A DNA stretch of 32,007 bases from a bacterium (GTDB lineage: Bacteria; Patescibacteriota; CPR2; UBA1875; JAJYID01), in NCBI GenBank assembly GCA_021794535.1, contig JAJYQQ010000004.1, positions 1 through 32,007 on the forward strand, in the 5' to 3' direction. The notes below the pieces were generated by a model. That model ran no database searches and was not told the DNA's origin. It was given only the letters and a program-made list of their open reading frames with translations. Positions 8,966 through 10,145 of the stretch are shown piece after piece. Position numbers and translations under genes: made by a program. How positions within the stretch are numbered: the first letter of the stretch is position 1; each line of letters starts with the position of its first letter.

Positions 8966-9877
8966 ATGAATATTAAACAAGCTCTTTTGCGGGCAAGCAG
9001 AGAATTAGAGGAAAATAAGGTTTCAGAGCCGGAAAAGTCGGCTGAGTTTTTGCTTCGCCAAGCTTTGGGATCTCAATCCGACACCAGGTGTGGGATTGAA
9101 TGGGATAAGGCAAAGCTGCTGGCAAATCCTGATTATGAATTAAGTTTAGCTCAAGAGAAAAAATTCAGAGAGTTTATCGAAAGGCGCAGGAAACATGAAC
9201 CGGTTTGGTATATAACTGGGAAAATAGAATTTTACGGATTAGATTTGGAAGTGAATGAAAATGTTTTAATACCACGGCCGGAGACGGAATTCTTGGTGGA
9301 AGAAGTTGTGGCTGTCATTCCCGCGGAGGCGGGAATCCAGTCAAATCATATTAAGATATTGGAACTAGGAACCGGCAGTGGAGCAATAACACTTGCGCTA
9401 GCTTCAGAAGTCCGAAGTTCGAAGTCTGATGTCCAGTTCTTTGCCTCGGATATTGTGGAAGAAGCGCTTAAAATTGCCAAAAAAAATGCAAAAAAGTTAA
9501 GACTCGAAAAGGACATTGAATTCCGGCAGAGCGATTTGCTGGACAACTGGGATGGTGAAAAGTTTGATATTATCGTTGCCAATCTTCCATACATTCCGCA
9601 CGAAGATTTAAGTTTTTTGGCACTCGATATACACCGCTGGGAGCCAAGAGTGGCGCTAGACGGTGGGAAAGAAGGCCTGGAAATCTATGCACGGTTATTA
9701 CTACAAGCAAAGGATTATTTAAATGAGAATTATCAGATGTTTTTTGAAATAGGGATTGATCAGGGGGAGAAGTTAAAGAAATTAGCGGAAAAATATTTAC
9801 CGGGGTCGGAGGTGGAAATAAAGAAAGATTACGGAGACATCGACAGGATAGCGATCATTAGCTTCAAAAAGGCGTAA
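8966..9877 (+). CDS. prmC: PrmC-like peptide chain release factor glutamine methyltransferase
   Basis: 303 residues. PrmC methylates the Gln of the GGQ motif in release factors. A helical N-terminal domain carries PVWYITGKIEFYGLDL and VLIPRPETEFLVEE (about 75-113). The methyltransferase motif I is ILELGTGSGAI (about 130-140). The substrate motif, usually NPPY, reads NLPY at 206-209. Residues 117-125 (VIPAEAGIQ) are encoded exactly by a 27-base palindromic repeat that sits in the variable linker before motif I. The start ATG is six bases after the tRNA-Ala CCA end, with no clear Shine-Dalgarno; the only purine-rich sequence lies inside the tRNA 3' arm. Stop TAA. Confidence 0.9.
   Translation: MNIKQALLRASRELEENKVSEPEKSAEFLLRQALGSQSDTRCGIEWDKAKLLANPDYELSLAQEKKFREFIERRRKHEPVWYITGKIEFYGLDLEVNENVLIPRPETEFLVEEVVAVIPAEAGIQSNHIKILELGTGSGAITLALASEVRSSKSDVQFFASDIVEEALKIAKKNAKKLRLEKDIEFRQSDLLDNWDGEKFDIIVANLPYIPHEDLSFLALDIHRWEPRVALDGGKEGLEIYARLLLQAKDYLNENYQMFFEIGIDQGEKLKKLAEKYLPGSEVEIKKDYGDIDRIAIISFKKA
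9314..9340 (+). repeat. 27-base palindromic repeat inside prmC
   Basis: Begins GTCATTCCCGCGG and ends GGCGGGAATCCAG. It is identical to 24912-24938 and to the reverse complement of 15327-15353 and 23600-23626. It is in frame, free of stops, and adds nine residues. Confidence 0.9.
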
Positions 9878-9898: not shown

Positions 9899-9963
9899 GT
9901 CATTCCGGACTTGATCCGGAATCTAGACCAATAAACTGGATCCTGAATCGAGTTCAGGATGAC
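9899..9963. repeat. Pair of GTCAT...GGAATC palindromes
   Basis: Two hairpin units stand back to back. 9899-9925 has arms GTCATTCCGGA and TCCGGAATC. 9936-9963 has arms GGATCCTGAA and TTCAGGATGAC. The outer GTCAT and ATGAC ends make the pair a larger inverted repeat. They separate prmC from the tRNA cluster. Closely related composites lie at 23042-23128 and 24217-24282. Confidence 0.75.
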
Positions 9964-9971
9964 AAATTCGC

Positions 9972-10145
9972 GGGCCCTTGGCTCAGTTGGAATGCTCTGT
10001 GGGGCTGTAGTTCAGTTGGTTAGAATGCATCCATGGCATGGATGAGGTCAGGAGTTCGAATCTCCTCAGCTCCACAGAGAATTCAAGCTTAGCGGTCCGA
10101 TGTCCATCGGACAGGTCACCGGTTCGATCCCGGTAGGGTCCACCA
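9972..10145 (+). tRNA. tRNA-like sequence split by an inserted tRNA-Ala
   Basis: The 5' piece (9972-9990) has acceptor GGGCCCT and the start of a D arm, GGCTCAGTTGG. The 3' piece (about 10086-10145) has an anticodon-type hairpin GTCCG/CGGAC, variable loop AGGTC, T arm ACCGG-TTCGATC-CCGGT, acceptor AGGGTCC and ACCA. The two acceptor strands pair over all seven positions, with a G3-U70 wobble. Between them, in the D-loop region, sits a complete tRNA-Ala(GGC). The anticodon loop of the outer molecule looks like eight bases (ATGTCCAT), and the D stem is incomplete once the insert is removed. It may therefore be a pseudogene, or a split tRNA needing unusual processing. The amino-acid identity is left open. 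Confidence 0.6.
10001..10074 (+). tRNA. tRNA-Ala (anticodon GGC), nested
   Basis: A complete cloverleaf. The acceptor GGGGCTG pairs with CAGCTCC (G3-U70 present). The D arm contains AGTTGGTTA. Anticodon stem CATCC/GGATG closes loop ATGGCAT, giving GGC for codon GCC. Variable loop AGGTC and T arm AGGAG-TTCGAAT-CTCCT follow. The discriminator is A, but CCA is not encoded (CAG follows). Flanking bases extend the acceptor helix: CTCTGT (9995-10000) pairs with ACAGAG (10074-10079), then GAAT with ATTC after one mismatch. This leaves the discriminator paired in the precursor. Confidence 0.93.

Follow-up and report, generated by a model that had tools for sequence, protein, structure and literature searches.

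An intact tRNA-Ala(GGC) gene of a tiny symbiont-type bacterium (Patescibacteria) was found enclosed by the two halves of another, disrupted tRNA-Ala(GGC) gene, with the insertion located in the D-loop of the outer gene (positions 9972–10145 of the window, i.e. the whole 32,007-nt stretch of DNA analyzed here). Very likely, the invading tRNA replaces the function of the native gene and the outer gene is dead, the locus being one member of a recurrent class of such replacements in the Patescibacteria. The genome containing the window is a draft metagenome-assembled genome (96% complete, 69 contigs) labelled G000; the other G labels refer to genomes of relatives and the L labels to individual loci. 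The features of the locus and its upstream neighbourhood are:

8966–9877, + strand: prmC (peptide release factor methyltransferase; PF17827, E 5e-17), upstream neighbour.
9899–9963, + strand: upstream REP-like repeat, of a type that also precedes the uninterrupted tRNA-Ala(GGC) of G002 by a similar distance (sequence comparison).
9972–9990, + strand: 5′ part of the outer relic, with the acceptor 5′ strand, positions 8–9, D-stem 5′ strand and D-loop start of the native tRNA-Ala(GGC); 19/19 identity with the uninterrupted gene of G002 and others.
9991–10000, + strand: left inverted-repeat flank AATGCTCTGT, lengthening the inner acceptor helix; paired with 10074–10084 and recurrent among nested tRNAs.
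10001–10074, + strand: inner tRNA-Ala(GGC), the putative working gene, without encoded CCA (ARAGORN; Rfam 64.5 bits; sole Ala(GGC) among the recovered tRNAs).
10074–10093, + strand: right inverted-repeat flank ACAGAG-A-ATTC-A-AGCT-T-AGC, an imperfect reverse complement of 9981–10000 including the outer D-arm strand (MFE fold).
10096–10111, + strand: palindrome TCCGATGTCCATCGGA, where the outer anticodon arm should be; the same 16-mer is found at the anticodon arm of tRNA relics in G048 (Gly) and G110 (Val) and at non-tRNA sites.
10113–10145, + strand: 3′ part of the outer relic, with the variable loop, T arm, acceptor 3′ strand and ACCA of the native tRNA-Ala(GGC); 33/33 identity with the native gene of relatives.

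Much of this anatomy had been read correctly in a preliminary description of the locus. Re-reading and folding of the sequence upheld, with its coordinates, the pairing of the outer acceptor strand GGGCCCT (9972–9978) with the AGGGTCC preceding ACCA (10142–10145), where all seven pairs are formed, one of them a G:U at 3:70. The perfect inner tRNA-Ala(GGC) and its nesting were confirmed as well, this being the sole tRNA called at the locus (ARAGORN; Rfam RF00005), and so were its complementary tails, as the MFE fold lengthens the inner acceptor helix by the flanks CTCTGT/ACAGAG and GAAT/ATTC. The complete 174 nt fold at an MFE of −77 kcal/mol (z −5.1). At gathering scores, Rfam reported only two tRNAs in the window and no intron match, and thus no ribozyme core between the exons. 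No integrase was found among the scanned neighbours of the locus, and no GIY-YIG gene was found among them or within the insert.

The outer halves were compared by BLAST to 59 genomes (its own and those of relatives), which revealed uninterrupted tRNA-Ala(GGC) genes with the same two ends in G002, G004 and G005, from the same genus and family. Positions 9972–9990 and 10113–10145 are identical to positions 1–19 and 44–76, respectively, of the G002 gene. Because its ends are identical to the uninterrupted gene of relatives, the outer gene is, on sequence grounds, the remains of the native tRNA-Ala(GGC) of the family rather than a second functional tRNA or a split one, and the match of its halves is not due to chance. 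The native anticodon arm CATCCATGGCATGGATG has been lost and GTCCGATGTCCATCGGAC stands in its place. What had been described as an eight-base anticodon loop is actually a palindrome, with a stem of 7 bp and a loop of 4 nt, whose core TCCGATGTCCATCGGA recurs as an exact match at 8 sites, spread over 7 of the 380 Patescibacteria genomes searched (0 for a control pattern). It also replaces the anticodon arm in the Gly and Val relics listed above and its non-tRNA sites include one within a REP repeat; TCCGATGTCCATCGGA is a mobile palindrome. Tests of the tRNA models with and without the inner gene, as the preliminary description had proposed, gave no support to an outer tRNA: with the inner gene present only that gene was called (ARAGORN, Rfam), and after its in silico removal ARAGORN returned only tRNA-??? 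with the anticodon ttca or gtcc. Splicing of the outer gene was also considered and rejected, with Rfam and ARAGORN both negative. By all appearances, the outer gene is dead as a tRNA and decaying. The dead relic that had earlier been offered as the second choice is hence the reading borne out by the overwritten anticodon arm, the shared identity of the inner gene and the uninterrupted gene of relatives, and the idea that the outer gene was a different tRNA falls away, as its halves and the inner gene are the same isoacceptor.

Of the approximately 40 tRNAs recovered, the inner gene alone is a tRNA-Ala(GGC); another could be missing from the draft. Aligned to the native gene it shows 57 identities over 78 columns, with differences in the acceptor and T stem. 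A local duplication of the native gene was therefore rejected for this locus, since the inner gene differs from the outer one while the outer one equals the family allele. A search for its donor among GTDB and IMG/VR contigs yielded no exact match to the inner sequence. Encoded CCA is absent from the inner gene and present in the other intact tRNAs read in G000; as a CCA-adding enzyme is encoded at G000:C14, the missing CCA is not a sign of a dead inner tRNA.

The preliminary description had suggested looking for the same arrangement in related genomes, and it was indeed found there, at 13 tRNA loci beyond G000. Additional cases were sought by comparing all called tRNAs with the retrieved loci in a local BLAST search for uncalled partial copies. 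In total, the full nested form occurs at 17 tRNA loci in Patescibacteria, four of them in G000, in addition to 5S-in-5S arrangements in two genomes. The other G000 loci comprise an intact tRNA-Thr(TGT) within the variable loop of the native Thr gene (C7; also present in G009), an intact tRNA-Arg(CCT) within the T-loop of another tRNA-Arg(CCT), held in a 12-bp stem CCCCGCACTTTC/GAAAGTGCGGGG (C23), and an outer tRNA-Ala(TGC) split by an intact tRNA-Ala(TGC) and a GIY-YIG gene (C64). In G002, a Gly(CCC)-Thr(CGT) pair lies between a Gly 5′ half and a Thr 3′ half. The 5S cases (L149, G000:C64; L147, G002:C39; around 1400–1900) each consist of a full 5S rRNA gene (Rfam 92–93 bits) within a broken, palindrome-decorated 5S gene.

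All contigs of GTDB were furthermore scanned for tRNA 5′ ends that break off within the D or anticodon arm and are directly followed by another tRNA. Nine loci with a genuine 5′ fragment were found in Patescibacteria, and in five of these the inner tRNA is followed by the corresponding 3′ half: Levyibacteriota Val(GAC), Peribacteraceae Val(CAC), Woesebacteria tRNA(CAT), Paceibacter Val(GAC) and Uhrbacteria Val(GAC), the last with two concentric levels. Three of the five were flagged by the automatic criterion and the other two were recognized by reading. Among the 15 non-Patescibacteria loci read by eye, none had an enclosing 3′ half, and all were short plain 5′ duplications. Eight loci were obtained with a second pattern in 380 Patescibacteria genomes; the full nested form is present at six, namely Ile in G125 and G168, Val in G055 and G332, Asp in G373, and Ala in G040. 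At L209 and L215, the 5′ half alone remains beside an inner tRNA flanked by inverted repeats. The arrangement had been called very unusual, which holds for bacteria at large, enclosing halves being confined to Patescibacteria in the GTDB scan, but not within the Patescibacteria with their 17 loci. No report of a tRNA nested in a tRNA was found in the literature search; the nested cognate-tRNA class is recurrent in Patescibacteria and, as far as the literature was searched, undescribed.

The nested loci share several rules. The insertion point is in every case a loop of the outer RNA, with D, anticodon, variable and T loops all represented, and anticodon-loop entry recurs between positions 35 and 36 in both Val and Ile. 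Wherever readable, the inner and outer genes are the same isoacceptor, with one exception (an Ala(CGC) within an Ala gene looking like TGC, in G040). The best inverted-repeat stem adjoining the acceptor has a median of 10 bp at nested loci compared to 5 bp for 350 other tRNAs (p=5e-10), and stems of at least 8 bp occur in 14/17 scored nested loci versus 27/350 other tRNAs. The nested set was picked by outer halves or a 5′ half and not by repeats, a few of the 17 scored loci having a 5′ half only; the window locus was merged with a duplicate and counted among the other tRNAs, and therefore acts against the test. The repeats prolong the acceptor helix without a break in Paceibacter, G373 and the window; those of the window are shorter and lack the CCC...GGG ends common in other cases. 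The window locus otherwise conforms to the class, with both halves of the same isoacceptor enclosing an intact tRNA, an insertion in the D-loop, and pairing tails. In L261, the inner and outer genes are nearly identical, so not every case needs a foreign donor. The sequence AGTGCGGGGT, considered as a fixed terminal repeat or transposon end, recurs at the Arg, Thr and 5S loci and in a bare palindrome, yet it was rejected as a universal end because two of its matches are a normal 23S helix.

As to what drives the insertions, standalone GIY-YIG genes are frequent in the class, and 9 of 33 full-length ones in six genomes lie less than 200 nt from a tRNA, an approximately ten-fold enrichment over the random expectation of ~3% (40 tRNAs × ~690 nt in 897 kb). 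In G010, palindromes and then a GIY-YIG gene follow a tRNA-Cys 5′ half, and the stop codon of the GIY-YIG gene overlaps the start of a complete tRNA-Cys; the order is similar at the G002 Asn, G000 C64 and G008 Thr loci. Since a GIY-YIG gene stands between the displaced and replacement tRNAs in several loci, homing-like break repair is a plausible driver. Neither the window locus nor the Arg, Thr(TGT) and 5S cases have such a gene nearby, so that at the window locus this driver is putative. Small standalone GIY-YIG genes by tRNAs were seen in G000 (C36:11394, C46:11606, C64:3689, C33:2534), G010:C63, G009:C9, G003 (C2:530300) and G004 (C4:55445).

Under the favoured replacement reading, a short hairpin-shaped insert, comprising a complete tRNA-Ala(GGC) of a different allele with inverted-repeat flanks, would have entered the D-loop of the resident tRNA-Ala(GGC). 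The event may have begun when a double strand of the native gene was broken where it encodes a loop and was repaired on a related tRNA gene as template, with fold-back template switching during repair producing the inverted repeats; in at least some loci, small GIY-YIG homing-type nucleases may initiate the insertion. The inner tRNA would be transcribed, released from the long stem by ordinary tRNA-processing enzymes, completed by the CCA-adding enzyme, and would perform all GCC/GCU decoding. The outer gene, presumably no longer under selection, would accumulate palindromes, its anticodon arm being overwritten by the mobile one. An invader disrupting a tRNA or 5S gene would in this manner provide a working copy of the gene it destroys, and the inner and outer genes would share their anticodon because, with single-copy tRNAs, only a cognate replacement survives. 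More tentatively, and with a confidence just short of even, we suggest that Patescibacteria carry miniature replacement cassettes: hairpin-shaped DNA bearing an entire tRNA or 5S rRNA gene would enter the loops of cognate genes, whether or not a small GIY-YIG nuclease takes part, killing and replacing them, so that essential RNA genes turn over from within, sometimes repeatedly as in the concentric copies of Uhrbacteria.

The same end state could have been reached by another driver, namely a replication or repair accident without a mobile element, in which template switching between tRNA copies at hairpin-forming DNA, aided by uptake of related DNA, built the nested loci and the GIY-YIG genes are passengers. 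This is a possible though not the expected course of events. The flanks do look like fold-back synthesis, as in the tRNA-Asn of G001 where the right arm consists first of native flank and then of a copy of the left flank; nucleases are missing altogether from several loci, and palindromes are common in these genomes. Accident accounts less readily for the ten-fold enrichment of GIY-YIG genes beside tRNAs, between displaced and replacement copies, and for the repeated entry between positions 35 and 36.

An integrative element at a tRNA attachment site, with att duplication, is the usual origin of partial tRNA copies (PMC9897764), and a partial Ala 3′ end without a 5′ half does exist at G002:C36. 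For the nested loci this origin is very unlikely, as att duplication yields a complete and a 3′ partial copy and not a complete gene between both halves, the insert is only ~100 bp, no integrase was found among the scanned neighbours of the window locus, the insertion points vary between the D, anticodon, variable and T loops, and 5S rRNA is affected too.

The reading preferred in the preliminary description was that the outer halves form a functional two-piece tRNA, recalling the split tRNAs of Nanoarchaeota, with RNase P and RNase Z freeing the inner tRNA and the halves staying annealed by their complementary tails. The halves do co-fold at −46 kcal/mol with the acceptor, T arm and tails paired, the acceptor pairs fully and includes the G3:U70 Ala identity pair, and complementary tails are seen again at other nested loci. 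The proposal is nevertheless highly unlikely to be correct: the mobile palindrome has taken the place of the anticodon arm, the D-stem is destroyed, a two-piece tRNA would be redundant given that its identity equals that of the inner tRNA, the only tRNA-Ala(GGC) recovered, other outer relics lack the anticodon half or carry palindromes in several loops, and L209 and L215 keep the 5′ half alone. The uninterrupted outer tRNA of G002, G004 and G005 is moreover the very observation that the preliminary description had named as speaking against a split gene. Misassembly or chance tandem fragments, conceivable for a draft of 69 contigs, are extremely improbable given that the architecture is repeated at four tRNA loci and a 5S locus of G000 and at 13 further tRNA loci elsewhere, including loci on large contigs (L217, 123 kb; L211, 170 kb), and that the junctions have unique sequence.

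Several other oddities associated with tRNA genes were observed. The last 23 nt (T54 to CCA) of many tRNA genes are copied ~80–160 nt downstream, usually exactly, in G000, G001–G004 and G014; examples in G000 are tRNA-Lys(CTT) (C69, L097), tRNA-Tyr (C7, L144), tRNA-Glu(CTC) (C60, L105) and tRNA-Leu(GAG) (C36, L098). The spacer before the copy contains a stretch complementary to the T-stem and TTC, and then a hairpin such as GGCGGCTGAGCCGC directly before the copy. This arrangement is reminiscent of a small ribozyme or intron-like element equipped with an internal guide, and it had no Rfam match. In G000, a repeat TTTCATAG...TCAATGTAAACT often directly follows the CCA of tRNAs, and AGTTTACACTGA...GAAGT ends directly before other tRNA genes (L098, L099 and others). 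A 104-nt tRNA-like gene with an anticodon loop of ~37 nt (L108, G000:C52:9663–9766) scored 57 bits with the Rfam tRNA model and received no ARAGORN call. In G110:C4 (L111), a tRNA-Val relic with palindromes in the D stem, D loop and anticodon arm adjoins an intact tRNA-Val(GAC). Positions 1700–2080 of L121 (G002:C34) contain a tRNA-Asn whose anticodon loop holds an apparent group I intron. Before this tRNA lie a GIY-YIG gene and a displaced 5′ half of tRNA-Asn, in which a palindrome occupies the place of the D arm. In four Chloroflexi-type genomes (L200, L245, L248, L249), a conserved ~42-nt 5′ tRNA-like fragment lies directly 5′ of tRNA-Val(CAC).

If the nested class is real, it would show how an essential RNA gene present in one copy can be exchanged with no lethal interruption. 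It would account for odd tRNA annotations in Patescibacteria, where annotators otherwise log the halves as pseudogenes or split tRNAs, and would provide natural conditions under which homing nucleases could be tested against RNA genes. To our knowledge, tRNA genes have been thought to be lost, gained or recoded, and not to be replaced by a cognate copy in their own loop. Fungal mitochondrial elements carry a replacement gene end together with a nuclease gene, and resemble the nested loci in that the invader provides a working copy of the displaced host sequence; they differ in that protein genes are concerned and only the 3′ part is replaced.

Split and permuted tRNA genes also have halves encoded apart with complementary tails (PMC2237900, PMC3978253), whereas the nested halves are without an anticodon arm that could be used, and a working tRNA of their own kind lies between them. 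In the window, unlike in a Nanoarchaeum-type split gene, the joined halves give only tRNA-??? (ARAGORN) and the same tRNA is otherwise encoded, inside. Group I introns in a tRNA anticodon loop (PMC3984707), to which the G002 tRNA-Asn read from the sequence of L121 may be likened, share the placement of an insert in a tRNA loop; the window insert is a tRNA and not a ribozyme, with no Rfam intron match. Integrative elements at tRNA attachment sites likewise invade tRNA genes while the host tRNA stays functional and partial copies are left (PMC9897764), but they restore one end and leave one partial copy, in contrast to a complete gene placed by a ~100 bp insert in the loop of a two-part gene; in the window, both halves enclose the complete gene and the scanned neighbours include no integrase. 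In a survey of CPR rRNA genes, introns or other inserts and homing endonucleases, some of them GIY-YIG, were found in 16S and 23S rRNA and none in any 5S gene (PMC11270868). The same bacteria and the invasion of RNA genes, in some cases with GIY-YIG, are thus common to both, the survey being one without tRNA genes. Finally, SegB of phage T4 is a free-standing GIY-YIG homing endonuclease encoded in a tRNA gene cluster, between tRNA genes (PMC2988022). It is likewise the product of a small GIY-YIG gene in tRNA DNA, which spreads via double-strand-break repair and co-converts neighbouring tRNA sequence (PMC2988022), whereas the nested loci split a tRNA and supply a whole replacement inside it, often without a nuclease.
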